Shown: positions 4,535 through 22,720 of the stretch, piece by piece
Layout: each line of letters starts with the position of its first letter
How positions within the stretch are numbered: position 1 is the stretch's first letter
From: Aquisalimonas sp.
GTDB taxonomy: Bacteria > Pseudomonadota > Gammaproteobacteria > Nitrococcales > Aquisalimonadaceae
Length of the DNA stretch: 38,676 bases
Assembly: GCF_007120195.1 (NCBI RefSeq)
Contig: NZ_SKOG01000278.1
Span: 1-38,676 of the forward strand
Direction: 5' to 3'
Position numbers and translations under genes: made by a program
The notes under the pieces: generated by a model
The model's input: the letters and a program-made list of their open reading frames with translations, nothing else
Database searches by the model: none
Told to the model about the DNA's origin: nothing

Positions 4535-4881
4535 ACACGAACCCCATTGGGTGTTGAAGTTGTCTCATTCTGGCAACTGTGTCCAAGAGCGTCGACTGGC
4601 ACCTTTGTTTTAGGCCGGTCCGCGCGCCACGGTGCCAACCCCAAAATGCAGCAGATTCAGGCCGTAGATCCGGGGTAAATTGCGACGCAATGGACCAGTT
4701 GGCGATCAATTTGGTGCTTAATGACCCAGTGCATGCCATTGTCCCAATTTAGTGCATCCGATTCGCGCTGTCATCTTCAACCTCTTGTGCAGTGCGGCGC
4801 TTCGGTGATTGGTCATGGAGCGCTGCCGCGAAACCCCGGACAGGCTGCTATCATGCGGTCGTTACTCGCTGGCAGGACCGC
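4535..4881. promoter_or_regulatory. Divergent intergenic region with 11-base direct repeats
   Basis: About 350 bases separate the regulator gene from mobA. Near-identical direct repeats CAATTTGGTGC (4707-4717) and CAATTTAGTGC (4745-4755) are 38 bases apart, and a further AGTGCAT lies between them. The arrangement suits a transcription-factor site but no known consensus is matched. A TGGCAC at about 4595 lacks a proper -12 element. Confidence 0.35.
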
Positions 4882-5523
4882 ATGATGACCCAACCGCAGT
4901 TGCACAGCGTCACGGGGATAATCCTGGCAGGCGGGCGAGCGACCCGCATGGGCGGCACGGACAAGGGGCTGGTGGAACTCGCCGGTCAGTCCATGGTGGA
5001 TCATGTTGCGCAACGACTTGCCCCGCAGACTGGCGCCCTGGTGATTAATGCCAATCGCAACCGTGTGGCCTACGAACAGCGGGGCTGGCCGGTGGTGCCC
5101 GATGCGTTCGGCGAGTTTGCCGGGCCTCTGGCCGGAATGGCGGCCGGCCTCACCGCGAGCACCACGGCGTGGGCTGTGACCGTGCCGTGCGATTCGCCCC
5201 TGGTTCCGCCCGATCTGGTCGCCCGGCTCAGCAGCGCCGTGCATGCTGACAACGCCGATCTTGCTGTTGCGTGGGGCGCGGGGCGGATGCAACCGGTCTT
5301 CGCCCTGCTGCCGCGTCGGCTGCTTCCCGACCTGGAGGCATTCCTGCGCGACGGTGGCCGCAAGATCGATCAATGGTACGCCCGTCACCGGGTGGCGCAG
5401 GCCGATTTCGAGGATTGTGCCGAGGCGTTCTTGAACGTCAACACCCCGGAAGACAGGGATGCCCTGGAGGCGCGCCTGACCCGGCTCGAGGCGCCTGGAG
5501 CGGCACAACCGGGGGAACTTTAG
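4882..5523 (+). CDS. mobA: Molybdenum cofactor guanylyltransferase MobA
   Basis: A 213-residue cytosolic enzyme that transfers GMP from GTP to molybdopterin to give the bis-MGD cofactor used by DMSO-reductase-family enzymes such as formate dehydrogenase. The nucleotide-binding signature is complete near the N-terminus: ILAGGRATRMGGTDKG. Further family features are PDAFGEFAGPLAG, the V-P-C-D-S-P-L metal-binding segment and the late N-V-N-T-P-E-D motif. I chose ATG 4882 (or the adjacent ATG 4885) because it directly precedes the conserved core and has GGCAGGA upstream; a 30-residue N-terminal extension is unlikely. The next gene begins four bases after the stop, so the two are probably translationally coupled. 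The product is consistent with the FDH operon downstream. Confidence 0.93.
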   Translation: MMTQPQLHSVTGIILAGGRATRMGGTDKGLVELAGQSMVDHVAQRLAPQTGALVINANRNRVAYEQRGWPVVPDAFGEFAGPLAGMAAGLTASTTAWAVTVPCDSPLVPPDLVARLSSAVHADNADLAVAWGAGRMQPVFALLPRRLLPDLEAFLRDGGRKIDQWYARHRVAQADFEDCAEAFLNVNTPEDRDALEARLTRLEAPGAAQPGEL

Positions 5524-8005: not shown

Positions 8006-8758
8006 TCAGCGGCGGATTACATCGACCAGCAGCCCCGGCTGTTTCAGGCTTGTGAGCACGACGCGATCGAAGCGCTCGCCGCCGTCGAGGATGTGGCGGG
8101 CCGTCTCCTCGGCGGCGCGGCGGGCGGCGGGCGTGTCCACCATGTTGAGAACCGGTACCGGGGTGACATTGGCGCAGCCGCGCAGCATCCCCTGCGGATG
8201 GGTATAGAGCCGGGCCATGTCGGCTGGGGTGAGGAGCTGATCCTCGCACAGGCCCGTGATTGCCAGGACGCGGTCGAGGCGATGGGCGATGCGCTCGTTG
8301 ACCGGCCGTGCCAGGGCTTGCACGGAACCCACGAGCAGGGCGACGTCGGCGCACGCCGGAATTATCGGCTCATCATCGCGGGGTGCCTTGATCTGGCGCA
8401 TGCGGGCGCCGTCGGCCTTGACGACGGTGAGTGCGAAGGCGCCCTCACGGTGGATCGCCGCAAGGGTCTGTGCCGAGACGCCAGCCAGCCGGCCGACCTT
8501 GCTGCAGGGCTGGGCGTAGAGAATGCGCCCGGCGCTGTGACTCGGTACCCGGTCGCGCAGGGCGGTTTCCTCGTCCACCACCACGGCGGCAGCGAGTTTC
8601 GGCGGTGGCTGGTAGGTGAACACCGTGGCGGTCATGGCGGTGCGCCCGGGGTGGTGTTGCAGCAGGTGGTAGAGCAGGGTCTTCTTGCCGCCCGCACCGA
8701 CGGCGCAGACAATGCCCCGTTCGGCGCCCAGTGCTTCATACAGGGTGTCGCGACTCAT
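8006..8758 (-). CDS. yqeC: YqeC-family molybdoenzyme accessory protein
   Basis: A 250-residue protein resembling YqeC, a putative accessory factor originally tied to selenium-dependent molybdenum hydroxylases. Near the N-terminus is a P-loop-like GAGGKKT (21-27). A conserved VVKADGARMRQIKAP segment and a TGLCEDQLLTPADMARLYTHPQGMLRG stretch (quoted here only as landmarks from ITGLCED to the later THPQG) are typical of the family. ATG 8758 overlaps the stop of the upstream BNR gene (ATGA), implying translational coupling and favouring this start over a longer frame. The usual hydroxylase partners are absent, and FdhA here uses cysteine rather than selenocysteine, so a general molybdenum-cofactor role is more likely locally. 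The biochemical activity is not established. Confidence 0.75.
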   Translation of the reverse strand: MSRDTLYEALGAERGIVCAVGAGGKKTLLYHLLQHHPGRTAMTATVFTYQPPPKLAAAVVVDEETALRDRVPSHSAGRILYAQPCSKVGRLAGVSAQTLAAIHREGAFALTVVKADGARMRQIKAPRDDEPIIPACADVALLVGSVQALARPVNERIAHRLDRVLAITGLCEDQLLTPADMARLYTHPQGMLRGCANVTPVPVLNMVDTPAARRAAEETARHILDGGERFDRVVLTSLKQPGLLVDVIRR

Positions 8759-9882
8759 GGCACTCGCTCCGCGGGGACCACCGCTGCCGTGACAGAAAGG
8801 ATGCGCGGCAGGAACGCAGCCAGCAGCTTCCAGCGCTGGCCGCGGTCGCTGCTTGCGAAGAGGTGGCCGCCGGATGTGCCGAAATAGACACCGCATTCCG
8901 GCAGGTCATCCACATCCATGGCATCCCGCAGCACCGAGACGTAGGCGTGCTCCTGGGGCAGCCCCTTGGTCAGGGCGTGCCAGCTGTGCCCGGCGTTGGC
9001 CGTGCGATAGACGCGCAGCCGCCCGTCCACGGTCGTACGCAAGTGATTGCTGTCGATAGGGATGACATAGAGCGCGTCCGGGTCGGCCGTCTCGGTCACG
9101 GCCGCGTAGCCGAAGTCGCTCGGCAGGCCGGCGGTGATCTCCGTCCAGCGGTCGCCGGCATCGTCGCTGTGGTACACGCCGTGATAGCACTGGCGATAGA
9201 GACGATCGGACGTGCGCGGATGCACGACCAGGCGATGGATGTTGTGGCCGGTTTCTGGACTGGCCTGGGGCAGGTGCTCGGCGCGCACGCCGGCATTGAT
9301 CGGCGTCCAAGAGCGCCCGCCATCATCACTTCGAAATGCGCCTCCCGCGGAGACCGCCGCGAACATCCGGTTCGGGTTGTCCGCAGCGACATGGATGGAA
9401 TGCAGGAAAAATCCGCCCCGCGCCGGTTCCCAGGTGTCGCGAGAGGGATGATGATTGATGCCCTGGACTCCGGCCCAGGAGCCGCCTGCGTCGGTGGTCA
9501 CGAACAGCCCCGCGGGGTCAATGCCGGCGTACACCGTCTCCGGCGCGTCGGCTGCCCCGGGCGCCAGGAACCAGATCGCCCGCAACGCGGATTCCTGTTC
9601 GCCAGGGGGATGGCTCGGCCGCGCCGGCAGGGAGTCCCAGGACGCGCCGGCATCGTCGCTGCGGTAGACGTGGCTGCCCCAGATCGGGTGATTGGCCGCG
9701 GCATAACCGCGGGTAGGCCGGCGCGGGTCCAGCCAGGCGTGGAGGACCTCGTAGCCGGCGATCAGGGGACCCTCCATGCGCCATGCGTCCCGCTCGGTGT
9801 CGCTAACCAAGCGGAACAGTCCCTTTTGGGTGCCGACCAGCAGAATAACGCGGGCGTGGCGGTGCCGAGTGGATGGACCCAT
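8755..9882 (-). CDS. WD40/YVTN/BNR-repeat beta-propeller protein (sialidase-like fold)
   Basis: A 375-residue protein with about six Asp-box (BNR) motifs of the form S-x-D-x-G-x-x-W: YRSDDAGASW, TTDAGGSW, RSDDGGRSW, HSDDAGDRW, RTANAGHSW and SSDRGQRW. This predicts a six- or seven-bladed beta-propeller. No signal peptide is visible with the chosen start, so a cytosolic location is likely. ATG 9882 has a near-perfect GAGGAG ribosome site; the longer open frame has none. It overlaps yqeC by four bases and is divergent from the JAMM/E1 pair. Such propellers occur beside MoaD/ThiS-like genes in other genomes, but the function is unknown. Sialidase activity is not supported, since the catalytic residues of true sialidases were not seen. 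Confidence 0.75.
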   Translation of the reverse strand: MGPSTRHRHARVILLVGTQKGLFRLVSDTERDAWRMEGPLIAGYEVLHAWLDPRRPTRGYAAANHPIWGSHVYRSDDAGASWDSLPARPSHPPGEQESALRAIWFLAPGAADAPETVYAGIDPAGLFVTTDAGGSWAGVQGINHHPSRDTWEPARGGFFLHSIHVAADNPNRMFAAVSAGGAFRSDDGGRSWTPINAGVRAEHLPQASPETGHNIHRLVVHPRTSDRLYRQCYHGVYHSDDAGDRWTEITAGLPSDFGYAAVTETADPDALYVIPIDSNHLRTTVDGRLRVYRTANAGHSWHALTKGLPQEHAYVSVLRDAMDVDDLPECGVYFGTSGGHLFASSDRGQRWKLLAAFLPRILSVTAAVVPAERVP

Positions 9883-9986
9883 GTGACTCCTCAGGTTGCG
9901 CTCGGTTGTGAGTCGGGACGCGCGTTGGCACGCATTGCACCAGATAAAGGGGGCGTGCGGCGATCCTGAACTGATATCATAAGGCC

Positions 9987-10385
9987 ATGAGTGAGACGCA
10001 ACTGCTTTCCGGTCTGCGCGGGGCGCTGGTTGCACACGCGCGCAGAGCGGCGCCCGAAGAGGCCTGTGGCCTATTGCTCGGACAGCACGACCGTCCCACG
10101 GAGGTCGTTCGTTTGAGCAATCACGCCCACCAGCCTGTCCGCCGCTACGCCCTGGATCCGCTGGAGTACATGCAGGTGGAACGCTCCGCTGATCAGCGCG
10201 GGCTCGCCGTGGTCGGCGTCTGGCACAGCCACCCGGATGGCGGTGCGGAACCCTCGGAGACAGACCGCCGCGCAGCCTGGCCGGGGTGGCTGTACATCAT
10301 CGTCGGCTTACCCGCATCGGGCGACCCGGAGATTCGTGGCTGGCGGCTGCATGGTAACCGCTTTTGTGAGGACACGCTGCGCTGA
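9987..10385 (+). CDS. JAMM/MPN+ metalloprotease (Mov34/JAB family)
   Basis: A 132-residue JAB-domain protein. The zinc protease signature is complete: Glu25 in EEACGLLLG, and H80-S-H82-P ... S90-x-x-D93 in VWHSHPDGGAEPSETD. Prokaryotic JAMM proteins of this type are linked to ubiquitin-like ThiS/MoaD proteins and can cleave after their C-terminal Gly-Gly or remove C-terminal extensions. The stop codon overlaps the start of the next gene (TGATG), and that gene encodes a ubiquitin-like domain fused to rhodanese and E1 domains. A substrate-protease relationship is therefore the natural inference. AAGG precedes the ATG, and the upstream gene is divergent. Confidence 0.9.
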   Translation: MSETQLLSGLRGALVAHARRAAPEEACGLLLGQHDRPTEVVRLSNHAHQPVRRYALDPLEYMQVERSADQRGLAVVGVWHSHPDGGAEPSETDRRAAWPGWLYIIVGLPASGDPEIRGWRLHGNRFCEDTLR

Positions 10386-11830
10386 TGCCCGTCGTGACCG
10401 TACGCTTGCCCACGCCATTGCGCCCGCACGCCGGGGGGGCGCCGGAGCTCAGCCTTGAGGCCAGCACGCTCGCGGAGCTCCTGACCCGTGTCGCGGAGGA
10501 TTACCCCGGGCTGGGACAACGGCTGTTGACGCCCGAGGGGGACGTGCGGGCGTTTGTCAATATCTTCGTGGGTGAACACAACATGTCGGCCCTGGATGGG
10601 CAGCAGACCGAGCTTGAGGACGGACAGGTGATCTCCATTCTGCCCGCCGTCGCCGGCGGCTCGGGTAAGGCCCGTGATCGCCACCTGGAGCGCCTGCGTC
10701 AGGAAGTCGGTGAGCTCGAGCCCCTTCAGGCGCAGGCCATGGCGGCTGACGGGGCGGCGCTTATCGACGTTCGCGAGCCTGACGAAATCGCCTCGGGGAG
10801 CCCGGAGGGGGCGCTGCGCATGGGGCGTGGTTACCTGGAGCTGCGCATTGAGGAGGAAATCCCCGACCTCGATCGTCCCGTGATTGTCTTGTGCGCGAGT
10901 GGGTCGCGTTCGCTGCTTGCGGGCGGCGATCTACGCCGGCTGGGCTATAGCCGCGTTTACTCCGTCGCCGGCGGGTTCAACCGCTGGAAGGACGACGGGC
11001 TGCCATTTACCGTGCCCCGGGTGCTGGACGCGGATGCCCGCGCGCGGTACGCCCGCCACCTGCTTATGCCGGAAGTAGGTGAGAGGGGGCAAATGCGGCT
11101 TATGGACAGCAAGGTGTTGCTGGTCGGGGCCGGGGGGCTTGGCTCGCCGGCGGCTTTGTACCTGGCCGCCGCCGGCGTGGGCCGCATTGGTATTGTCGAC
11201 CATGACGTGGTCGATCGCAGCAACCTGCAGCGGCAGGTCATCCACAGTGAAGAGCGCGTCGGCGAGTCCAAGGTCGCTTCCGCGCGGGAGGCGATTCGCC
11301 AGCTCAACAGCGCGGTGACCGTCACAGGGCATGCGTGTTACCTCAACTCCGAGAATGTGGAAGACATCTTCGGTGATTACGACGTGATCCTCGACGGTGC
11401 GGACAACTTTCCCACCCGCTACCTGGTGAATGACGCCTGCGTGAAGCTCGGCATTCCCAATGTCCACGGTGCCGTCTACCGCTTCGAGGGCCAATTGTCG
11501 GTGTTCTGGCCCGGCCGTGCGGGCGCCCCAGGGCCCTGTTATCGCTGTCTCTTCCCGGAGCCACCGCCGCCTGAACTCGCTCCCTCGTGCGCCGAGGCCG
11601 GTGTGCTCGGTATTCTCCCCGGTGTCATCGGGCTGATGCAGTCGGTTGAGACGATCAAACTGCTACTTGGCGTGGGGGAGCCGCTCGTGGGGCGGTTGCT
11701 GCACTACGATGCCCTGGCGGCGCGTTTCCACGAGCTCAAGGTTGAGCGAGACGTGGGCTGTGCGTACTGCGGTGAGGGCCAAGTGTTTCCGGGGTATGTG
11801 GACTACCAGCTGTTTTGCGGCCAGGGGTAA
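10385..11830 (+). CDS. Ubiquitin-like (MoaD/ThiS) - rhodanese - E1-like (MoeB/ThiF) fusion
   Basis: A 481-residue three-domain protein. Residues 1-92 are a MoaD/ThiS-like beta-grasp domain ending ILPAVAGG, so the terminal Gly-Gly (91-92) is internal. Residues about 105-208 are a rhodanese domain with a candidate active-site Cys170 (VLCASGSRS). Residues about 215-481 are an adenylating E1 domain: GAGGLG nucleotide loop at 248-253, the D-x-V-D-x-S-N-L-x-R-Q motif, zinc pairs CYRC (385/388) and CAYC (459/462), and Cys402 in SCAEAGVLG. It should activate and sulfurate a MoaD-type carrier for molybdopterin synthesis, with the rhodanese as sulfur donor. A free carrier would require cleavage after Gly92, plausibly by the overlapping JAMM protease. 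The order differs from MOCS3, where rhodanese follows E1. Confidence 0.9.
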   Translation: MPVVTVRLPTPLRPHAGGAPELSLEASTLAELLTRVAEDYPGLGQRLLTPEGDVRAFVNIFVGEHNMSALDGQQTELEDGQVISILPAVAGGSGKARDRHLERLRQEVGELEPLQAQAMAADGAALIDVREPDEIASGSPEGALRMGRGYLELRIEEEIPDLDRPVIVLCASGSRSLLAGGDLRRLGYSRVYSVAGGFNRWKDDGLPFTVPRVLDADARARYARHLLMPEVGERGQMRLMDSKVLLVGAGGLGSPAALYLAAAGVGRIGIVDHDVVDRSNLQRQVIHSEERVGESKVASAREAIRQLNSAVTVTGHACYLNSENVEDIFGDYDVILDGADNFPTRYLVNDACVKLGIPNVHGAVYRFEGQLSVFWPGRAGAPGPCYRCLFPEPPPPELAPSCAEAGVLGILPGVIGLMQSVETIKLLLGVGEPLVGRLLHYDALAARFHELKVERDVGCAYCGEGQVFPGYVDYQLFCGQG

Positions 11831-11852: not shown

Positions 11853-13130
11853 TTAACCCATCACGCCTTCGAACGGCTGCACCTCCACACGGCTTCCCGC
11901 GGCAACATCGCCGCCGTCGTGGGGTAGTACGATGAAGCAGTTGGCCAGGCTGACCGAGCGCAGAATGCCGGACCCCTGGCTGCCTGTTGTCGTCACCACA
12001 AGCTCGCCGTCGCCATCGCGGCTGAGCACCCCGCGCTGGAATTCTGTCCGTCCCGGGCGCTTGCGCAAGGCATTCGCGGTGCGCACACGAAATGTCATGG
12101 GCGGTTGCGGGTCTTCGCCCATGAGCCGTCGTAGCGCCGGCTGCACGATCTGGTACCAGGTGGCAACCACGGAGACCGGATTGCCCGGCAGCCCGAAGAA
12201 ACGGGCCTGCCCAATGGTGCCGAACGCCAGCGGCCGCCCTGGGCGCATGGCGATCTTCCAGAAGGCCACCTCGCCAAGTCGGCCCATGATCTCCTTGACG
12301 AAATCGGCCTCCCCTACCGAAACCCCACCCGAGGTGATAATGGCGTCCGCAAAGGAGGCGGCATCGGTAAATGCCTGTTCCATCACGTGGGGATCATCCG
12401 CCACCACGCCCATGTCCGTCGCTTCCACGCCCAACCGCTGCAGGGCAGCAAACAGGGTGTAGCGGTTGCTGTCGTAGATCTGACCCGGTTCCAGGGTCGA
12501 GCCCGCGATGCGCAGCTCATCCCCGGTGGAGAAGAAGGCCACCCGTACCCGCCGGTAGACAGGGACTTCCACCAGTCCGAGGCTGCCGAGCATGCCCAGC
12601 TCTGCCGGACCGACGCGTTGTCCGGCCATGAGGACGGTATCCCCCTGCAACAGATCCTCCCCCGCGGGACGCACATTCTGACCTGGCGTCTCCGCGGCTT
12701 GAATCGTGATCTGCCTACCCGCGCATTGAACGTTTTCCTGCATGACGACCGTGTCGGCGCCGGGCGGAATCGGAGCGCCGGTCATGATTCGCACACATTC
12801 CCCCGGCTGCATCGCCCGGGTAAAGGAAGCCCCCGCGAGCACGGTTCCGACACAGGCAAGTGTTTGCGTTCCCGCCGCGGGAATGTCCGCGCCCCGCAGG
12901 GCGTAGCCGTCCATGGCGGCGTTGTCCTGGGCAGGGACGTTGATGCTGGACTGGACCGGTGCGGCGAGGACGCGCCCCAGTGCCTGGCGCACAGTCACCC
13001 GTTCCGTACCGTGCACCGGCTCGATGACCGTGCGTATGCGCTCCCACGCGGCTTCTACGGGGAGGGAGCGTGGATCATGATCACTCCGGCAGGAGGGCTC
13101 ATTTTGGAACGCTGTGTCTTTATCAGTCAT
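11853..13130 (-). CDS. moeA: Molybdopterin molybdenumtransferase MoeA
   Basis: A 425-residue cytosolic enzyme that inserts molybdate into adenylylated molybdopterin. Signature regions are present in order: the QDNAAMDGYALR segment, IMTGAPIPPGADTVVMQE, FFSTGDEL, GQIYDSNRYTL, ITSGGVSVGEADFVK, MRPGRPLAFG and the late FGLPGNPVSVV. ATG 13130 was chosen; upstream in-frame codons extend into the divergent DUF6494 gene and lack similarity. Its ribosome site is weak (GGGT). It is convergent with the E1 fusion (22-base gap) and divergent from the small gene at 13189, within the molybdenum-cofactor cluster that precedes formate dehydrogenase. Confidence 0.95.
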   Translation of the reverse strand: MTDKDTAFQNEPSCRSDHDPRSLPVEAAWERIRTVIEPVHGTERVTVRQALGRVLAAPVQSSINVPAQDNAAMDGYALRGADIPAAGTQTLACVGTVLAGASFTRAMQPGECVRIMTGAPIPPGADTVVMQENVQCAGRQITIQAAETPGQNVRPAGEDLLQGDTVLMAGQRVGPAELGMLGSLGLVEVPVYRRVRVAFFSTGDELRIAGSTLEPGQIYDSNRYTLFAALQRLGVEATDMGVVADDPHVMEQAFTDAASFADAIITSGGVSVGEADFVKEIMGRLGEVAFWKIAMRPGRPLAFGTIGQARFFGLPGNPVSVVATWYQIVQPALRRLMGEDPQPPMTFRVRTANALRKRPGRTEFQRGVLSRDGDGELVVTTTGSQGSGILRSVSLANCFIVLPHDGGDVAAGSRVEVQPFEGVMG

Positions 13131-13188
13131 GATACCCGGGAAACCCATTAGTGGGTTGCTCTGTTCGTTTACCCAAGACAGGTGTGCC

Positions 13189-13401
13189 ATGAGTGATGAT
13201 GCCCTGAATATGCAGATTCGCAAATGCCTCAAGCAGTTTGGGGTGACCTCGCAGCAGGAGATTGAGCGTGCGCTTGGCGCGGCCCTCGAGAGTGGCAAGC
13301 TCGGCGGCAATGAGACCCTCACCGTGCGAATGACCCTGGAGGTCGATGGACTGGACCTGCGTCATACGATCAGTGGTGAACTCGACTTGAATTCAGACTG
13401 A
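13189..13401 (+). CDS. Small DUF6494-type protein
   Basis: A 70-residue protein with no catalytic motif. From memory it matches the DUF6494 pattern: an N-terminal helical stretch (DALNMQIRKCLKQFGVTSQQEIE), then SGKLGGNETL, and a beta-strand-rich end (VRMTLEVDGLDLRHTISGELDL). No signal peptide or membrane segment is seen. The start ATG 13189 has AGACAGG upstream; the longer in-frame start falls within the moeA leader. It lies divergently, 58 bases from moeA, and just before the FDH promoter region, so a role tied to molybdenum-enzyme maturation is possible but unproven. Confidence 0.75.
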   Translation: MSDDALNMQIRKCLKQFGVTSQQEIERALGAALESGKLGGNETLTVRMTLEVDGLDLRHTISGELDLNSD

Positions 13402-15088: not shown

Positions 15089-15105
15089 CCGAATCATGAG
15101 GTTTG

Positions 15106-16809
15106 ATGACTGATTATTTGAATGTCTACGCAGACATGGCACTGCCGGCTTCCGGAGCAGCGCGAGATGCTGCCCTGCAGGCGGGAGCGGTCGTGGAGGT
15201 CGCGGCCACCTCACTGGTGGGTTATCGCTCCGCCGGCCACTTGCTGCTGATTGGGCCGGAACTCGATGCCCTCGAGTGTGCGGCGCGTCTGCGAGAGCAG
15301 CTGACATGCACCATACTCGCCACTCGCGCTCACGAGGGTGAGCTGCCTGACGAGGCGGCTGCGGCGCGTGCGGACCAGCAGCGCGTGACCGTCCTTTACG
15401 GAGAGCCGGCGAGTGTGGAGGGGCACCTTGGTCATTTTGATATGGCGCTGCAGACACCCCGCGGTGAAAGCCTGCGTGCGGCGGATCTGAACGGCACCGA
15501 CCACCCCTGGTTTGATCTTGTGCTGGATCTGCGCCGCGAGCCCTCCCTGCAGATGGATCTGCCGCCGTTCGGGTATTACGCGCCCGCCGGCGATGGGGAT
15601 GCGCTGGAGCGCGCGTTGGTCGAGATCCCCGAGATGACCGGGGAGTTCGAGAAACCCAAGTTCTTCAATTACAGCCCTGACATTTGTGCCCATGGCGACA
15701 GCGGGCTCACCGGTTGCACGCGTTGCCTCGACGCCTGCCCGGCGGATGCCATTGCCTCGGCGGGTGAGATCATCCAGGTTGACCCCTATCTGTGTCAGGG
15801 CGGCGGGACCTGTGCCACGGCCTGTCCCACCGGTGCGATAATTTATGCCTACCCGGGCCCCAAGGACCTCGCCGCCCGGGTTCGGGCCATGCTGCAGGCG
15901 TTCCGCGAGGCCGGCGGCACGCACCCGGTGCTGCTGTTCCACGATGACGAGGCAGGGGCCGAGCGGCTGCGGGCGATCGCGCCGGCTTTGCCCGAGCCCG
16001 TGATTCCCGTGCGAGTCGCCGAGATCGGCTCCGTGGGCATGGATCTCTGGTTGACCGCGCTCGCCTATGGGGCCTCGGGCATCACCTTGCTGGACACACC
16101 AGCGGTGCCGCCCACGGTGCGCTTGGAGGTGCAGCGTCAGCTCGGCTACACGCGCAGCCTGCTTGATGCCCTGAACCTCGGTGGGGAGCGCATCGCCCTA
16201 TCACCGCGCCAGGAGAGCCCGGTGTCAATGCTCTCGGCCATGAGCGATTGGCAGCCCGTGAGCCCGGCAACCTTCGAGACCTTCAACGAGAAGCGCGGCA
16301 CGCTGCGGCTGGCGATCGACCACCTGTACGGTCAGGCGATCGCACGTCCGCAGTTGACGGCCATGCCAGCCGGGGCACCGTTCGGTCAGGTTCTCGTTGA
16401 CGTCGACAAATGCACGCTGTGCATGGCCTGCCCGCAGGTCTGCCCCACGCGGGCATTGACCGACGCAGGTGATCGGCCGCAGCTGAATTTCACTGAAGAC
16501 CTCTGTGTTCAGTGCGGACTGTGCCAGAGCGCCTGTCCGGAAGCGGCCATCACTCTGGAATCGCGCTACCTGTTCGATTGGGAGCAGCGCCGTCAGGCCC
16601 GCGTCCTGAACGAGGAAGAGCCCTTTGAGTGCATTAGCTGCGGTACGCCCTTCGCTACACCCAGCGTCATTGAGCGGATGACCCAGCGCCTCGAGGGTCA
16701 CCATATGTTTCAATCGGAAGCGAGTATGCGGCGGTTGAAGATGTGCGGTGACTGTCGCGTGAAGGACATGTTCGAATCCGAGCAGCGCTCGGGCAACACG
16801 GGAACATGA
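15106..16809 (+). CDS. Polyferredoxin-like 4Fe-4S protein of the FDH operon
   Basis: A 567-residue soluble iron-sulfur protein without a signal peptide. It carries two cysteine clusters in the first half (Cys194/204/207/211 and Cys230/236/240) and two classic CxxCxxCxxxCP motifs in the second (Cys436-446 and Cys467-477). A late quartet (Cys509/512 and Cys547/550) may bind a further cluster or zinc. The region between about 260 and 400 lacks cysteines and has an MvhD/CoA-like alpha/beta look (LLFHDDEAGAERL). Homologues sit beside FDH genes with DUF3305, DUF3306 and TorD. Electron supply during cofactor insertion, or to a cytosolic acceptor, are both guesses. ATG 15106 has GAGG upstream; TTG 15103 is adjacent. 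Confidence 0.85.
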   Translation: MTDYLNVYADMALPASGAARDAALQAGAVVEVAATSLVGYRSAGHLLLIGPELDALECAARLREQLTCTILATRAHEGELPDEAAAARADQQRVTVLYGEPASVEGHLGHFDMALQTPRGESLRAADLNGTDHPWFDLVLDLRREPSLQMDLPPFGYYAPAGDGDALERALVEIPEMTGEFEKPKFFNYSPDICAHGDSGLTGCTRCLDACPADAIASAGEIIQVDPYLCQGGGTCATACPTGAIIYAYPGPKDLAARVRAMLQAFREAGGTHPVLLFHDDEAGAERLRAIAPALPEPVIPVRVAEIGSVGMDLWLTALAYGASGITLLDTPAVPPTVRLEVQRQLGYTRSLLDALNLGGERIALSPRQESPVSMLSAMSDWQPVSPATFETFNEKRGTLRLAIDHLYGQAIARPQLTAMPAGAPFGQVLVDVDKCTLCMACPQVCPTRALTDAGDRPQLNFTEDLCVQCGLCQSACPEAAITLESRYLFDWEQRRQARVLNEEEPFECISCGTPFATPSVIERMTQRLEGHHMFQSEASMRRLKMCGDCRVKDMFESEQRSGNTGT

Positions 16810-17444
16810 GTAGACGGCTTATGGGTACGAAACACGAATCGGCCTCCACCTCACACGCTGCCACGCGGGAAGATGAATTCCGGGCCGGTACCTGGACACT
16901 GCTGGGTCGGCTGCTTGCGACCTCACCCGACGAGACGGTGTTGGGGTTGCTGCGCCAGATCCCCGGCATCGAACAGGGACGCGATGCCGACGCGCTGGCA
17001 GCTGCCTGGCGAGAGCTCCGTGCGGGTGCCGAGCAGGCCGACCTGGAACTTTTGAAGCGTGAATTTCATGAGCTATTCATAGGGGTAGGAGGCGGTGAAC
17101 TCACGCCATACGCCTCGTGGTATTTGACCGGTTCGCTCATGGAGCGTCCACTGGTGGTGCTGCGCCAGGATTTACAGCAATTGGGCGTGGAACGTCTGGA
17201 GGGTAACAGTGAGCCGGAGGATCATGCCGCTGCGATCTGCGACGTCATGGCGTTGGTGATCAGCGACCCGGATGTCTCCTTCGAGTGGCAGCGGGAGATC
17301 TTCCAAAAGCATGTGGAGCCCTGGATGGGGCAGTTCTTCCACGATCTGGAGCACGCTGAGAATGCCGAGTTCTACACAGCCGTGGGGCGGGTTGGCGTTG
17401 CCTTCGTGGCCCTGGAGCAGGATTACTTTTCCATGCTCGCCTGA
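16806..17444 (+). CDS. TorD/DmsD-family molybdoenzyme chaperone
   Basis: A 212-residue all-helical cytosolic chaperone of the TorD/NarJ/DmsD family, which binds the Tat signal and immature molybdoenzyme until the cofactor is inserted. Characteristic features are L-x-R-E-F-H-E-L-F-I-G near residue 90, a P-Y-A-S-W-Y segment, and the family hallmark E-P-E-D-H at about 136-140 followed by AAICDVMALV. The start overlaps the preceding stop by four bases (ATGA), indicating coupling; a second in-frame ATG lies at 16821. FdhA, two genes downstream, is the obvious client. The stop codon sits inside an 11-bp hairpin. Confidence 0.9.
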   Translation: MSRRLMGTKHESASTSHAATREDEFRAGTWTLLGRLLATSPDETVLGLLRQIPGIEQGRDADALAAAWRELRAGAEQADLELLKREFHELFIGVGGGELTPYASWYLTGSLMERPLVVLRQDLQQLGVERLEGNSEPEDHAAAICDVMALVISDPDVSFEWQREIFQKHVEPWMGQFFHDLEHAENAEFYTAVGRVGVAFVALEQDYFSMLA

Positions 17445-17464
17445 CACCGACCGGGTGTCAGGCG
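17438..17464 (+). promoter_or_regulatory. Perfect 11-bp hairpin spanning the torD-like stop codon
   Basis: CGCCTGACACC (17438-17448) pairs perfectly with GGTGTCAGGCG (17454-17464) around a five-base loop. No T-tract follows, so it is not a standard intrinsic terminator. Its position between the maturation genes and the structural genes suggests mRNA processing or protection of a segment. Confidence 0.6.
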
Positions 17465-17527
17465 GGTGAGCGTGACGAACAGGACAGTCGAACGACTCGA
17501 CGCGTCTTTAGCAGGAGGAGACAGATT

Positions 17528-17743
17528 ATGAGCACGCCAGACACTGATAACACCCGTCCTTCGCGGCGGCGGTTTCTGAAGACAGTGGTGGCCTCGGGCG
17601 GCGCCGTGGCGTTGACGGCGGGCGCAGGGGGTGTGCTTGCGCAAAATCCTCGCGATCAGGCCGAGGACGAGCCGCACCACGGCAAGAAGGGTTACCACGA
17701 AACCAAGCATATTCGCGATTACTATGCGAGGGCGGATTTCTGA
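17528..17743 (+). CDS. Small twin-arginine protein of the FDH region (formate_TAT type)
   Basis: A 71-residue protein with a twin-arginine signal SRRRFLKT followed by a hydrophobic, glycine/alanine-rich segment ending VLAQ. The mature part is only about 35 residues and ends HIRDYYARADF. This is the pattern of the 'formate dehydrogenase region TAT target' family (TIGR02811, from memory), always found just before fdhA. It is probably exported with, or as a small partner of, the FDH catalytic subunit, since it lacks any cofactor motif. A strong GGAGGAG ribosome site precedes ATG 17528. It is the first gene after the operon's first hairpin. Confidence 0.85.
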   Translation: MSTPDTDNTRPSRRRFLKTVVASGGAVALTAGAGGVLAQNPRDQAEDEPHHGKKGYHETKHIRDYYARADF

Positions 17744-17799
17744 GTCGTGCGCACGTCCTGTGACCGCCATGAAATCGCCTCGAATGGAGGAGTAAGATC

Positions 17800-20679
17800 A
17801 TGAAACTGACCAAGAAAAAGGCTGCGGGGGCCGGTGCCGCGGCTCCGGGGCTACTCGGCAAGGCGCTGACTCGACGAGCCTTTCTGCAGGGGTCGGGGTT
17901 GGCCGTCGGTGGTGCCGCCGTCGCGGGGATGCTGCCGACGTCCATGATGAAAAAGGCGAAGGCCGCGCGCCGCATCGATCCGGACCAGGAGATTAGAGAG
18001 GTATTGACGGTCTGCGGCCATTGTTCGGTTGGCTGCAGCACCATCGCCGAAGTGCAAAACGGCATTTGGGTTGGCCAGGAGCCCGCGCTGGATAGCCCCA
18101 TTAACCTTGGGGCCCACTGTGCCAAGGGCGCAGCGCTGCGCAACCACGGCCACAGCACGCGCCGGGTCAAGTACCCGATGAAGAAAGTCGGGGGGCGCTG
18201 GGAGCGCATCAGCTGGGAGCAGGCCATCGACGAGATCGGTGACAAGATCCTGCATATTCGCGATGAATCCGGCCCGGACTCGCTGTGGTTTGCCGGCTCC
18301 TCGAAGGCAAACAACGAGGGCGCCTATCTGCAGCGCAAGCTGGCGGCATTCTGGGGGTCCAACAACTGTGACCACCAGGCGCGTATCTGCCACTCCACCA
18401 CTGTGGCCGGTGTGGCGAACACCTGGGGATATGGCGCGCAGACCAACTCCTACAACGACATTCTCAAGTCCAAATGCATCGTCATGTGCGGCTCCAACGC
18501 CGCCGAGGCCCATCCAGTGGCGATGCAGATGATTCTGCGCGCGAAGGAGAACGGGTCGCACATGGTGGTCATGGACCCCCGCTTCACGCGCACCGCCGCG
18601 CACGCCGACACCTACGTCCGGTTCCGCTCGGGCACGGACGTGGCACTGATCTTCGGCATGCTCTACCACATCTTCGAGAACGAGTGGGAAGACAAGGAGT
18701 ACCTTGAGCAGCGTGTCTTCGGCATGGATCGCGTCCGGGAAGAGGTGAAGAAGTGGACACCCGATGAAGTCGAGCGTGTCACCGGTGCCTCCGAAGAGGC
18801 GGTCTACGAGGTGGCCAGGATCATGGCCGAGAACCGTCCGGGGACGTTCGTCTGGTGCATGGGCGGCACCCAGCACACCATCGGCAACAACTACGTGCGC
18901 GCCTACAACTGCCTGCAGCTCGCGCTTGGCAACATCGGCGTCGAGGGCGGCGGTGCCAACATCTTCCGTGGCCACGACAACGTCCAGGGGGCGACCGACG
19001 TGGGCCCCAACCCGGACAATCTGCCCGGTTACTACCCACTCTCGGAGGGTGGCTGGCAGCACTGGGCCCGGGTGTGGGACGTCGACTACGAATGGCTGGC
19101 GGAGCGCTTTGACCAGGAGGAGTACGACGACGGCCAAAATGGCAAGATCAAGCCCATGAACTCGGGCGGCATTACCGTCTCGCGCTGGATCGACGGGGTG
19201 CTGGAAGACAAGGAAAACATCGCCCAGAGGGACAACATCCGCGCGGTGATGATGTGGGGTCACGCCCCGAACTCCCAGACCCGTCTGCCGGAAATGAAGG
19301 AGGCGATGGAGAAGCTCGACCTGCTGGTGGTCATCGACCCCTATCCGACTGTCTCCGCCGTGCTCCATGAGCGCACGGACGACACCTATCTGCTGCCTGC
19401 GGCAACCCAGTTCGAGCAGGCCGGCTCGGTGACCGCGTCCAATCGTTCGCTGCAGTGGCGCTTCCAGGTCATTGAGCCGCTCTACGAGCACAAGCCGGAC
19501 AAGGACATCGCCTATCTGTTCGCCGAGAAGTTTGGCTTCGCCGACGAGATGTTCAAGAACATCGAGGTGGTGAACAAGCAGCCGACCTCCGAGAGCATCC
19601 TGCGGGAGATCAACAGGGGCACGTGGTCCATCGGCTACACCGGCCAGAGCCCGGAGCGGCTGAAAGAGCACATGGAGAACCAGCGCACGTTCAACGTGGC
19701 GAGCCTCAAGGCCGAGGGCGGCCCGGTGGATGGTGAGATCTACTGTCTGCCGTGGCCGACGTACGGCACCCCGGAGTTCAAACACCCCGGTACCCACGTG
19801 CTCTACGACACGAGCAAGCATGTGCTGGATGGCGGGGGTAACTTCCGTGCCAACTTCGGTACCGAGTACGAGGGTGAGAACCTGCTCGCCGAAGGGTCCT
19901 ACTCCAAGGGCGCGGAGATCCAGGATGGCTACCCCGAGTTCGATTCGGAACTCCTGAAGCAGCTGGGTTGGTGGGATGACCTCACCGAGGAGGAAAAGGC
20001 CGAGGCCGACGGCAAATCCTGGACGACCGACCTCTCGGGCGGCATTATCCGGGTAGCCATGGAGCGCGGCTGCCATCCGTTTGGCAATGCCAAGGCCCGG
20101 GCCTACGTCTGGAACTTCCCGGACCCGATCCCCTTGCACCGGGAGCCGCTCTATACGCCGCGCTACGATCTGGTCGAGGACTATCCGACCTACGAAGACC
20201 GCAAGGTGTTCTACCGGCTGCCGACACGCTATGCGTCCGTTCAGGCGACCGACTACTCGGACGACTTCCCGCTGATCCACACCAGTGGCCGCTTGGTCGA
20301 GTACGAGGGCGGCGGCGAGGAGACCCGTTCCAACCCCTGGCTCGCTGAGCTCAAGCAGGACATGTTCGTGGAGATCAATCCGGCGGATGCCAACGATGCG
20401 GACGTGCGTAATGGCCAGATGGTGTGGCTGGAAGGGCCTGAAGGCGGCCGCATCCGCATTAAGGCCCTGGTCACGGAGCGCGTTGGCCGCGGCACGGTGT
20501 TCACGCCGTTCCACTTTGGTGGACGCTTCCAGGGCGAGGATTTGCTCGAACGGTATCCTGAGGGAGCCAGTCCCTACGTCCGTGGTGAGTCGAACAATAC
20601 GGCGACGACCTACGGCTATGACTCGGTGACCATGATGCAGGAAACCAAGACGACGCTATGCCGCGTGACGCCGGCCTGA
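17800..20679 (+). CDS. fdhA: Formate dehydrogenase catalytic (alpha) subunit, Cys type
   Basis: A 959-residue molybdopterin oxidoreductase that oxidises formate to CO2 in the periplasm. The Tat signal LTRRAFLQGSG has Arg25-Arg26 after a lysine-rich n-region. The N-terminal 4Fe-4S site uses Cys72, Cys75, Cys79 and Cys107. The active-site segment reads DHQARICHSTTVAG: Cys197 takes the position of selenocysteine in E. coli FdnG/FdhF, followed by the conserved His198. Downstream come bis-MGD-binding features (GSNAAEAHP, GGTQHTIG, HTSGR and the C-terminal cofactor-binding domain). No in-frame UGA is involved. AGGAG lies upstream of ATG 17800. MobA, MoeA and the TorD-like protein in this window would supply and insert its cofactor. 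Confidence 0.95.
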   Translation: MKLTKKKAAGAGAAAPGLLGKALTRRAFLQGSGLAVGGAAVAGMLPTSMMKKAKAARRIDPDQEIREVLTVCGHCSVGCSTIAEVQNGIWVGQEPALDSPINLGAHCAKGAALRNHGHSTRRVKYPMKKVGGRWERISWEQAIDEIGDKILHIRDESGPDSLWFAGSSKANNEGAYLQRKLAAFWGSNNCDHQARICHSTTVAGVANTWGYGAQTNSYNDILKSKCIVMCGSNAAEAHPVAMQMILRAKENGSHMVVMDPRFTRTAAHADTYVRFRSGTDVALIFGMLYHIFENEWEDKEYLEQRVFGMDRVREEVKKWTPDEVERVTGASEEAVYEVARIMAENRPGTFVWCMGGTQHTIGNNYVRAYNCLQLALGNIGVEGGGANIFRGHDNVQGATDVGPNPDNLPGYYPLSEGGWQHWARVWDVDYEWLAERFDQEEYDDGQNGKIKPMNSGGITVSRWIDGVLEDKENIAQRDNIRAVMMWGHAPNSQTRLPEMKEAMEKLDLLVVIDPYPTVSAVLHERTDDTYLLPAATQFEQAGSVTASNRSLQWRFQVIEPLYEHKPDKDIAYLFAEKFGFADEMFKNIEVVNKQPTSESILREINRGTWSIGYTGQSPERLKEHMENQRTFNVASLKAEGGPVDGEIYCLPWPTYGTPEFKHPGTHVLYDTSKHVLDGGGNFRANFGTEYEGENLLAEGSYSKGAEIQDGYPEFDSELLKQLGWWDDLTEEEKAEADGKSWTTDLSGGIIRVAMERGCHPFGNAKARAYVWNFPDPIPLHREPLYTPRYDLVEDYPTYEDRKVFYRLPTRYASVQATDYSDDFPLIHTSGRLVEYEGGGEETRSNPWLAELKQDMFVEINPADANDADVRNGQMVWLEGPEGGRIRIKALVTERVGRGTVFTPFHFGGRFQGEDLLERYPEGASPYVRGESNNTATTYGYDSVTMMQETKTTLCRVTPA

Positions 20680-20705
20680 GAACGATTTGAGAGGAGAATG
20701 CCGTT

Positions 20706-21296
20706 ATGGCACGAATGAAGTTTCTGTGTGACGCCGAGCGGTGCATCGAGTGCCAGGCCTGTGTCACTGCCTGCAAGAACGAGCACGAGGTGCCCTGGGG
20801 CGTGAATCGGCGCCGGGTGATTGTCATGAACGATGGCAGGCCCGGCGAGAAATCCATCTCTGTTGCCTGCATGCACTGTACGGACGCACCCTGTGCGGCG
20901 GTCTGTCCCGTGGATTGCTTCTACACCACGGCCGACGGGATCGTGTTGCACGATAAGGATCTGTGCATCGGTTGCGGCTATTGCTTCTACGCCTGCCCCT
21001 TCGGAGCGCCGCAGTACCCGCAACAAACCGCGTTCGGGGTTCGGGGCAAGATGGATAAATGCACCTTCTGCGCAGGTGGTCCCGAACCGGTGCATTCCCA
21101 GGAGGAGCTCACCAAGTACGGCACAAACCGTGTCGAGGAAGGCAAGCTGCCGTTGTGCGCCGAGATGTGTGCGACCAAGGCCCTGATTGCGGGTGACGGT
21201 AACGTGATTGCGGATATCTATCGCAAGCGCGTCATGACCCGTGGCGGCCGACCGCAGACATGGGGGTGGCAGGCAGCCTACGGCGACGACATATGA
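20706..21296 (+). CDS. fdhB: Formate dehydrogenase iron-sulfur (beta) subunit
   Basis: A 196-residue subunit with four 4Fe-4S sites, which relays electrons from FdhA to the membrane subunit. Cysteine sets are 13/16/19/23, 55/58/63/67, 87/90/93/97 and 119/122/151/155. Unlike E. coli FdnH (about 290 residues), it lacks a C-terminal membrane anchor and ends AYGDDI, like the shorter beta subunits of FdhABC systems. No export signal of its own is present, so export piggybacked on FdhA's Tat signal is expected. AGAGGAGAATG upstream supports the start. It follows fdhA by 26 bases and is followed by a 12-bp hairpin. Confidence 0.95.
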   Translation: MARMKFLCDAERCIECQACVTACKNEHEVPWGVNRRRVIVMNDGRPGEKSISVACMHCTDAPCAAVCPVDCFYTTADGIVLHDKDLCIGCGYCFYACPFGAPQYPQQTAFGVRGKMDKCTFCAGGPEPVHSQEELTKYGTNRVEEGKLPLCAEMCATKALIAGDGNVIADIYRKRVMTRGGRPQTWGWQAAYGDDI

Positions 21297-21305
21297 CCGG
21301 GGTGA

Positions 21306-21337
21306 GGGCCGGGGCCCATTGCGCAGGGCCCTGGCCC
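21306..21337 (+). promoter_or_regulatory. 12-bp GC-rich hairpin after fdhB
   Basis: GGGCCGGGGCCC (21306-21317) pairs with GGGCCCTGGCCC (21326-21337) around ATTGCGCA. Eleven Watson-Crick pairs and one G-U pair make a very stable stem. There is no T-tract. It sits nine bases after the fdhB stop and may stabilise the fdhAB part of the transcript or attenuate the distal genes. Confidence 0.65.
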
Positions 21338-21386
21338 ACTGGGCTTGCTGGACCAGAACAACGGGACCGCTGAAGAGGAGCATTCT

Positions 21387-21581
21387 ATGATGCCGAAAAA
21401 AATTGCCCTTTCGGCCATTGCCGCGCTCAGCCTGGGGTTGTTGGCAGGCTGTGGCGACGTGACGCTCTATGAGCCAGGGGTCTACAAGGGCTCAGGCGAC
21501 GAAACGGCCTCAGAAGAAGCCGCCGAGCGGCGAGCCGACGCCCTGAGGGATCGGGCTCAAGCTGCCCATACTGACCGCTAG
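21387..21581 (+). CDS. Small lipoprotein in the FDH operon
   Basis: A 64-residue protein with a lipoprotein signal: positively charged MMPKK, a hydrophobic stretch and a lipobox LLAGC at about residues 17-21. The mature part (GDVTLYEPGVYKGSGDE..., then a Glu/Ala/Arg-rich helix) is about 45 residues and has no cofactor motif. GAAGAGGAG gives a good ribosome site for ATG 21387. It lies between fdhB and fdhC, just 17 bases ahead of the fdhC start, so it is almost certainly co-translated with them. A periplasmic tether or assembly aid for the FDH complex is a guess. Confidence 0.78.
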   Translation: MMPKKIALSAIAALSLGLLAGCGDVTLYEPGVYKGSGDETASEEAAERRADALRDRAQAAHTDR

Positions 21582-21598
21582 CTGTGGAGGAGGTCGAC

Positions 21599-22720
21599 AT
21601 GAACAAGCACCACGACGCAGCGGTGCGGGCCAGGCGGCGGTGGCGCTCGATGGTTTGGAGCATGATGGCGATTGTGTTCCTGGCCATGGCATTGCCCTCT
21701 GCGGGCTATCTGTTCGCCCAAGTCGGCGAGCCCACCGGGGAGCCGCAACGCCAGTTCTCGGAGCAAAGGGAGACCAACCCCCGTTCGGATATGTGGCGTG
21801 ACGGACGCCGCGGCGAGGGTGGTTTTACCACGCAGACTGGACCCTACGTTACCAATCAGTTGATGACCAATGTCGGTGAGAATTATCGCCAGATTCGCCA
21901 GGGCCCATTAATGACAGTCGGTGGGTGGTTCCTGGTGGCGGTTTTTCTGGCGATCACGGCGTTCTACCTGCTGACCGGCCAGAAAAAAATTGATGGAGGA
22001 CGTACCGGCAGGACCATCGTTCGTTGGAAGGCGTATGAGCGATTCCTGCACTGGTTCAATGCAATCTGCTTCATCATTTTGGCCATCACTGGGTTGAGTC
22101 TTTTGTTCGGGAGAACGGTGCTGATTCCCATTGTCGGGCATCAGGCCTTTTCCAGCTACGCCGAGTTCGCCTACGGTGCCCATAACTTTGTCGGACCAGC
22201 GTTCTCGGTGGGCGTATTGGTGATGATCGTGCTCTGGGCGCGTCACAACATTCCCAAGAAGCATGACTGGGTATGGTTCAAGGAAGGCGGGGGGATTATC
22301 GGTAACAAGCACCCGCCCGCGGGCAAGATGAACGGCGGTGAGAAGGTGTGGTTCTGGGTTGGCGTCTTTGCCCTGGGGCTGACGGTGATCATCACCGGGT
22401 TGATCGCGCTGTTCCCGAATCTGGGTTTCCAGACCCGAGAGATCATGTCCTGGGCGCTGATCATCCATGCCACGGCAGCGATTCTGTGGATGGGTTTGTT
22501 CCTGGGCCATGCCTACATCGGCACCCTTGGTACCGAAGGGGCGCTGGAAGGCATGACGCGCGGCCGCGTCGATGTCGCGTGGGCGAAGCAGCACCATGAC
22601 CTGTGGTATGAGGATGTGGTCGCTGCGGGTGAAAAACCCGTTTCCGAAGAGGAACTACACGGCCGGCAGCAACAAGGCCCCGCACCTGGTTCGACCCCTG
22701 CGGGCGAGCGAGGCACTTGA
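21599..22720 (+). CDS. fdhC: Formate dehydrogenase cytochrome b (gamma) subunit
   Basis: A 373-residue membrane subunit that takes electrons from FdhB via heme b and reduces quinone. It has an extra N-terminal hydrophobic segment (residues about 18-40) and a periplasmic-looking loop with GPYVTNQ, then four membrane helices of the FdnI type: ERFLHWFNAICFIILAITGL, a segment with the HNFVGP histidine, VFALGLTVIITGLIALF, and IIHATAAILWMGLFLGHAYIG. The conserved histidines in the first and last two helices are the expected heme ligands. It is longer than E. coli FdnI (217) but normal for this FdhC type. GGAGGAGG six bases before ATG 21599 fixes the start. Confidence 0.92.
   Translation: MNKHHDAAVRARRRWRSMVWSMMAIVFLAMALPSAGYLFAQVGEPTGEPQRQFSEQRETNPRSDMWRDGRRGEGGFTTQTGPYVTNQLMTNVGENYRQIRQGPLMTVGGWFLVAVFLAITAFYLLTGQKKIDGGRTGRTIVRWKAYERFLHWFNAICFIILAITGLSLLFGRTVLIPIVGHQAFSSYAEFAYGAHNFVGPAFSVGVLVMIVLWARHNIPKKHDWVWFKEGGGIIGNKHPPAGKMNGGEKVWFWVGVFALGLTVIITGLIALFPNLGFQTREIMSWALIIHATAAILWMGLFLGHAYIGTLGTEGALEGMTRGRVDVAWAKQHHDLWYEDVVAAGEKPVSEEELHGRQQQGPAPGSTPAGERGT

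Follow-up and report, generated by a model that had tools for sequence, protein, structure and literature searches.

A JAMM protease gene overlapping a gene for a sulfur carrier fused to rhodanese and E1 domains in Aquisalimonas sp.

The gene pair, the fusion protein and their neighbours

The window, by which we mean the whole 38,676-nucleotide stretch analyzed here, is contig 15 of a 4.05 Mb Aquisalimonas sp. genome assembled in 292 contigs. It carries a JAMM/Prok-JAB metalloprotease gene (9987..10385, + strand; 132 aa, Pfam PF14464) and a gene on the same strand (10385..11830, +) encoding a 481-aa protein in which a ubiquitin-like sulfur-carrier domain (UbL) is fused to rhodanese and E1 domains, as assigned by Pfam and NCBIfam PRK08762. 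As noted in a preliminary description of this DNA, the two genes overlap by one base: the ORF coordinates agree and, at the junction CTGCGCTGATGCCC, the TGA stop of the JAMM gene and the ATG start of the fusion gene share one A (TGATG). The complete JAMM signature named there was also recovered, Glu25, His80, His82 and Asp93 being found together with Ser90 (EACG...HSHPDGGAEPSETD), which corresponds to the Glu plus HxHx7SxxD zinc site of JAMM/MPN+ (Prok-JAB) proteins. The nearest solved chains are 2kcq, 2kks and JAMM1 (5lda/5ld9), and the protein scores below the cut-off of the desampylase family NF041370 (105.8 vs 130 bits). Pfam matches are strong for all four domains of the module (Prok-JAB, E 1.8e-27; ThiS family, 5.6e-11; rhodanese, 6.4e-14; ThiF, 2.7e-80), and a chance origin was rejected.

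Residues 1-92 of the fusion protein (10385..10660, +) form a CysO-like ubiquitin-fold sulfur-carrier domain, with the ThiS family match covering residues 6-92. The codons for Gly91-Gly92 (10655..10660, +) lie within PAVAGGSGKA, and cleavage is predicted after Gly92. A rhodanese domain (residues 116-203; 10730..10993, +) and an E1/MoeB-type adenylation domain of the ThiF family (residues 222-459; 11048..11761, +) follow in the same chain; Pfam bears out the domains first proposed, and the individual residues named there are correct. The classification of the UbL as MoaD/ThiS-like stood in part: there is a ThiS family match, but the domain is neither a classical MoaD nor a classical ThiS and is rather CysO-like. 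Among solved structures CysO matches it best (3dwg, E 1.5e-16), and among curated carrier families SAMP1 does so (44.5 bits, under the cut-off of 60); it is 57-59% identical to stand-alone UbLs from three genomes of the same genus.

The rhodanese active-site loop with Cys170 (CASGSRS) and the CxxC pairs 385/388 and 459/462 are intact and invariant in a chosen 24-row alignment. Two CxxC pairs distinguish MoeB-type from MoeZ-type E1 enzymes (PMC3227635), and the E1 of the fusion has both. The rhodanese-E1 part (residues 97-480) passes the PRK08762 cut-off (611 vs 449 bits). In an AlphaFold model built with 24 rows (mean pLDDT 84.6, pTM 0.59), the sole stretch of at least three residues with pLDDT below 50 is residues 90-94, spanning Gly91-Gly92. 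This would fit an exposed hinge at the Gly-Gly and says nothing of domain docking. Separate production of rhodanese-E1 from an internal translation start is unlikely, as there is no start codon at the hinge: between residues 82 and 146 the only in-frame ATG, GTG or TTG codons are at 82, 119 and 146, the latter two inside the rhodanese domain.

Several neighbours are related to molybdenum-cofactor synthesis. A convergent moeA (11853..13322, -; NCBIfam PRK10680; longest ORF, the true start possibly lying inside) is a conserved neighbour in the window's lineage (loci L003, L004, L011 and L017). On the other side, a yqeC-type gene (8006..8896, -; longest ORF; TIGR03172, 142.6 bits, cut-off 73) and a gene for a BNR-repeat protein divergent from the JAMM gene (8755..10035, -; BNR and Sortilin-Vps10 matches; longest ORF, start uncertain) are conserved as well, and mobA (4792..5523, +; TIGR02665, 233.6 bits, cut-off 152) lies upstream, some 4.5 kb from the JAMM gene. 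Beyond the module and moeA, 15103-22720 (+) holds a cluster for a molybdopterin oxidoreductase, in which ferredoxins, cytochrome b561 and a chaperone weakly resembling TorD are also encoded.

Related loci and previously described systems

A genome scan with the fusion protein yielded 117 relatives, and the best 80 loci were kept. Leaving out the window and its copy, a UbL was found in 26 of these 80, and each of the 26 also has a JAMM in the locus: in 24 it adjoins the UbL, and in L069 and L070 it comes after an E1. Among the 54 loci without a UbL, a JAMM was found in one (L022) and CysM in three; a missing UbL need not mean absence in some of these, because contig ends cut the locus (e.g. L023 and L060). 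In L022 (2273-4170) the JAMM adjoins a rhodanese-E1 with no UbL found nearby, an exception to the pattern. In L069 and L070, both from Nitrospirales, UbL and JAMM are clustered with a pair of E1-like genes and a pair of genes for PLP-dependent enzymes.

UbL and rhodanese-E1 form a single chain in some loci and are encoded by two overlapping genes in others. Within one clade (support 100/99), L005 is fused and L012, L015, L031 and L039 are split, all with a JAMM. The order UbL-E1-rhodanese, present in four Gemmatimonadota MAGs and one deltaproteobacterial MAG, is read as a putative separate fusion event, and the rhodanese-E1 tree requires 10 changes among fused, split and no-UbL states. In 24 further JAMM loci, an E1 neighbours the JAMM in 10 and a UbL in two (L227 and L229). 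In L200 and L201, a UbL stopping exactly at Gly-Gly precedes a JAMM gene, after which comes a gene for rhodanese-E1.

A cysteine synthase match was found in 21 of the 26 UbL loci (best 80 of 117) and MoeA in four; the one locus with neither, L006, is a short contig. No match to CysM of the linked type was found in the window, nor was such a CysM found in its own genome, where eight more distant matches exist, the best of them 37% identical. The cognate CysM of the CysO/Mec+/CysM pathway was thus not found in the window or genome.

Operons with JAB, E1-rhodanese and ThiS/MoaD genes were described in 2006 (Iyer et al., PMC1779556, rows 4b and 4c), row 4b naming Alkalilimnicola ehrlichei among the species that also have a ThiS/MoaD-like ubiquitin and row 4c adding a cysteine synthase. 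Its authors proposed that the JAB may free ThiS/MoaD from fusions and characterized such operons, in the account given there, as being without other cofactor genes (PMC1779556). As in rows 4b and 4c, a JAB, a ThiS/MoaD-like UbL, an E1 and a rhodanese are encoded together here. In contrast to those rows as described, with separate genes and the rhodanese C-terminal to the E1, the present protein is one UbL-rhodanese-E1 chain, and the window's lineage has MobA, MoeA and YqeC as neighbours. The module likewise resembles the Mec+/CysO/CysM/MoeZR system in its CysO-like UbL, adjoining JAMM and rhodanese-E1, with CysM in 21 of the 26 related loci, but differs from it in the lack of an adjacent CysM, the fusion of carrier and E1, the rhodanese N-terminal to the E1 and the molybdenum-related neighbours.

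Both the kind of operon and the idea of cleavage have therefore been known since 2006; for MoaD-MoaE, cutting by a JAMM has been demonstrated in other systems. New here are a carrier fused to its own E1, fusion and splitting that recur across the loci, and the tail rule presented below. Titles and abstract openings in the literature searched, a scope that cannot exclude an earlier account, gave no description of a carrier fused ahead of rhodanese and E1, nor of the tail rule.

Carrier termini and the presence of a JAMM

UbL ends were compared using the best-80 loci, matches listed in the window's relatives and a class-level sample (UbL match in 10 of 369 genomes), 57 distinct UbLs being left once five duplicates were removed (for the relatives, among the matches listed). 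A UbL was scored JAMM-positive if a JAMM was present in the locus or the genome had a Prok-JAB match at E 1e-12 or better, and JAMM-negative if there was no match at E 1e-12; for the best-80 loci, status was scored by locus only. Many JAMM-negative genomes have weaker Prok-JAB matches, some above the Pfam cut-off. Five such matches were checked as possible hidden JAMMs, and four of the five (those of G017, G047 and G016 and a second match in the own genome) are RadC. The fifth, from G038 (33 bits), is a larger protein without HxHx7SxxD in the part covered. This large Prok-JAB protein (L187:1-1890, +) has a sub-threshold prokaryotic E2 match and is unrelated to the UbL locus.

Among the matches listed, the 46 JAMM-positive UbLs comprise 27 fused, 12 tailed (1 to 37 residues) and 7 ending exactly at Gly-Gly, and all 11 JAMM-negative UbLs stop exactly at Gly-Gly. 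Every UbL in the best-80 loci extends past the Gly-Gly, split forms by a tail of 1 to 11 residues. The preliminary description had suggested a survey of homologues and stated that a fusion persisting without the Gly-Gly would speak against release; no such case occurs, all 27 distinct fused UbLs (22 UbL-rhodanese-E1 and 5 UbL-E1-rhodanese, among the matches listed) keeping the Gly-Gly with a JAMM beside each. A tail is not required where a JAMM is present, given that 7 of 46 JAMM-positive UbLs and 8 of 18 JAMM-positive MoaDs stop at Gly-Gly. So does a JAMM-positive UbL fragment at a contig end (L229), which is outside the count of 57. L203-L205, from the class-level sample, sit on long branches as distant relatives, two of the three being JAMM-negative.

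A Fisher test on the 57 UbLs gives p 1.7e-7, a value that overstates the support because the rows are related by descent and the distribution follows lineages. On the tree of UbLs, which is based on 89 columns and leaves many forks unresolved, extension has to change 8 times, JAMM 3 times and fusion 11 times; the tree contains three independent pairs differing in JAMM, one of them on supported branches. UbL and MoaD tail patterns both cluster by lineage and independent comparisons are therefore few, so that the case rests on consistency and on the contrast provided by genome G017 rather than on a significance value.

That contrast is found at a single syntenic site flanked by YqeC, BNR and MoeA genes in relatives. 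JAMM and fusion occupy the site in the window and in G004, G006, G009 and G015. In G001, G002, G003, G005 and G008, it holds a JAMM and a stand-alone UbL, tailed in three and not in two, and no rhodanese-E1 of the window type was found in these five genomes. In G017 there is no JAMM of the window kind (the weak Prok-JAB match being RadC), and an in-frame TAA directly after the Gly-Gly is followed by a separate rhodanese-E1, MobA and MoeA; the position of G017 is weakly supported in the rhodanese-E1 tree. In eight more JAMM-negative genomes the UbL stops at Gly-Gly, with YqeC, MobA and MoeA matches within 2.5 kb and, in seven of the eight, the BNR protein as well. YqeC thus stands beside UbL, MobA and MoeA in relatives of the window's order (window 8006-8896, -; L269-L276), and the BNR-repeat protein often adjoins the UbL family, stand-alone UbLs included (window 8755-10035, -; L206 and L207).

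The own genome encodes further carriers. A MoaD next to the only MoaE found (L085:1483-1758, contig 13, - strand) ends in PPVSGG-HRGRS, five residues past the Gly-Gly; it was called by its place beside MoaE and a Pfam match and scores under the NCBIfam moaD cut-off (36.9 vs 66 bits). Additionally, there are a second stand-alone MoaD-like protein, which stops at Gly-Gly, a ThiS next to ThiG, and a stand-alone E1 passing the MoeB subfamily cut-off. The suggested check for stand-alone moaD and moeB hence found both, and the earlier view of a self-contained system for molybdopterin was not supported in that form: MoaD, MoaE and MoeB exist elsewhere in the genome, for which reason molybdopterin synthase was rejected as sole client, and CysM accompanies 21 of the 26 related loci.

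A MoaD match was obtained in 46 of the 59 genomes that were searched, the own genome among them, and each of the 46 C termini was read. Tails are present in 10 of 18 JAMM-positive and 0 of 28 JAMM-negative genomes. The ten tails have 5 to 9 unconserved residues, nine of them being in relatives and differing in sequence from that of the own MoaD; all ten fall in one family, in which another genus has a JAMM without tails. The class-level profile search gave MoaD matches in 17 of 369 genomes, a low yield that reflects the small number of candidates scored. Among 15 further MoaDs of this class sample, one of three JAMM-positive cases is a MoaD-MoaE fusion (L243:1012-1788, -, in G223; MoaE part confirmed), and none of 12 JAMM-negative cases is extended.

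Proposed maturation and client pathways

The most likely reading of this comparison, proposed with good confidence, is that the JAMM cuts the fusion protein after Gly92 and that the freed carrier is loaded by the rhodanese-E1. Carrier release, as first suggested for this locus, is favoured by the 27 of 27 fused UbLs that keep the Gly-Gly and the 11 of 11 JAMM-negative UbLs that end there. The carrier would be made fused in front of its own sulfur-loading enzyme and, since it is fused to rhodanese-E1, would be blocked at synthesis. Hydrolysis of the bond after Gly92 would yield a 92-residue carrier with a C-terminal Gly-Gly and a rhodanese-E1 enzyme. By analogy with MoeB, MoeZR and CysO, the E1 would then adenylate the C terminus of the freed carrier, and a persulfide on rhodanese Cys170 would provide the sulfur of a carrier thiocarboxylate. 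The same JAMM would probably also trim the tail of the own MoaD (GG-HRGRS).

In the QbsD/QbsE and HcyD/HcyS pairs, a JAMM matures the UbL by trimming residues past the Gly-Gly. HvJAMM1 cleaves SAMP1-MoaE and restores molybdopterin-dependent growth (PMC4443979), DR0402 cleaves MoaD-MoaE (PMC8832034), and the mycobacterial MoaD-MoaE fusion MoaX has to be cut behind its second glycine, the paper naming no protease for this step (PMC4326299). CsRpn11 takes a nine-residue tail off CsUb after the Gly-Gly (PMC6043591). In all these a carrier or UbL with an internal Gly-Gly has to be cut to become active or mature, and owing to the MoaD-MoaE, MoaX and CsRpn11 precedents the present JAMM should cut after Gly92. 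Unlike the MoaD-MoaE fusions, in which the partner is the MoaE of molybdopterin synthase, the partner here is the carrier-activating enzyme and, compared with the tail-trimming JAMMs, the "tail" is a rhodanese-E1 of 389 residues. With cleavage as proposed, the maturation of sulfur carriers by JAMM proteases would come to include a zymogen-like arrangement in which the carrier is fused to the enzyme that activates it. Such cleavage would also supply a simple and widely testable genomic rule, namely that residues after the Gly-Gly predict a JAMM, and the tail rule points to JAMM-dependent molybdenum-cofactor synthesis.

Other roles of the JAMM and UbL were weighed. The JAMM may act mainly like Mec+, freeing the loaded carrier of its cysteine or of some other product, with exposure of the Gly-Gly secondary. 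MoeZR puts sulfur on CysO and MoaDs in thiocarboxylate form, and CysO-cysteine is the substrate that Mec+ hydrolyses (PMC3227635); the present UbL is nearest to CysO, 21 of the 26 related UbL loci (best 80 of 117) have a cysteine synthase, and a JAMM also accompanies carriers already stopping at Gly-Gly. Nevertheless, a search next to the window module gave no CysM, the own genome's best match to the linked CysM is 37% identical, the neighbours in this lineage are molybdenum-cofactor genes, and the tails and fusions found only with a JAMM would be left unexplained, which makes a mainly Mec+-like role a minority option, though the strongest of the alternatives. Somewhat less probable still, the freed carrier could feed cysteine synthesis here too, via a non-adjacent cysteine synthase: the linkage in relatives' loci and the eight more distant matches in the genome would allow it, against which stand the same 37% identity and the molybdenum-related neighbourhood.

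We consider it improbable that the fused UbL is never released and acts as a docking or regulatory domain of the E1, the JAMM serving other carriers such as the tailed MoaD. The genome does have other carriers, and a different role was suggested for the fused domain where a ThiF with a fused ubiquitin-like domain occurs with a separate ThiS (PMC1779556). Yet the Gly-Gly is invariant in the fusions, UbL and enzyme are encoded separately in close relatives (e.g. L005 fused vs L012, L015, L031 and L039 split, all with a JAMM), and genomes of the same genus retain JAMM and UbL without the fused enzyme. Ubiquitin-like conjugation, as in archaeal sampylation, seems equally improbable; here the E1 would activate the released UbL so that it could be attached to proteins, from which the JAMM would take it off again. 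The NCBIfam scores for desampylase (105.8 bits), SAMP1 (44.5 bits) and SAMP-activating E1 (328 bits) recall such a system, all under their cut-offs; against it, the rhodanese attached to the E1 points to sulfur transfer, the neighbours are biosynthetic, and the scanned window proteins (part of the ORFs) gave no E2-family match.

The client pathway is the least certain part of the preferred reading, in which the JAMM releases the carrier for loading. In the window's lineage the conserved YqeC/MobA/MoeA neighbourhood makes a molybdenum link plausible, and we give a molybdenum-cofactor role roughly even chances, ahead of cysteine synthesis, which appears unlikely here. We know of no role for a carrier in this conserved neighbourhood, in which the present, uncharacterized one is now placed. 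For YqeC, an accessory function with selenium-dependent molybdenum hydroxylases has been suggested (PMC2276186). YqeB, however, had no match in the own genome and passed its cut-off in 0 of 59 genomes (G053 coming near, 206 vs 220 bits); alongside YqeC, the module could possibly play a sulfur-related part in molybdenum-cofactor synthesis. Tentatively, the observations could be joined by taking the one JAMM as a master maturase for more than one carrier in the window's lineage, which frees the carrier from its E1 and trims MoaD, molybdenum-cofactor synthesis thus needing the JAMM. With a JAMM, stop codons after the Gly-Gly could drift or vanish, loss of the JAMM would force the stop back, and the freed carrier would, with YqeC, bring sulfur to the molybdenum cofactor by an undescribed route.

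A separate association was seen on a Rhizobium plasmid (L279:869-9013), where a UbL and a rhodanese-E1 are clustered with YcaO-like, TfuA-like and LanM genes. This UbL, which is outside the count of 57, stops at Gly-Gly, with no JAMM match in 9.4 kb, and the UbL and rhodanese-E1 of this cluster are possibly supplying sulfur for a modified peptide.
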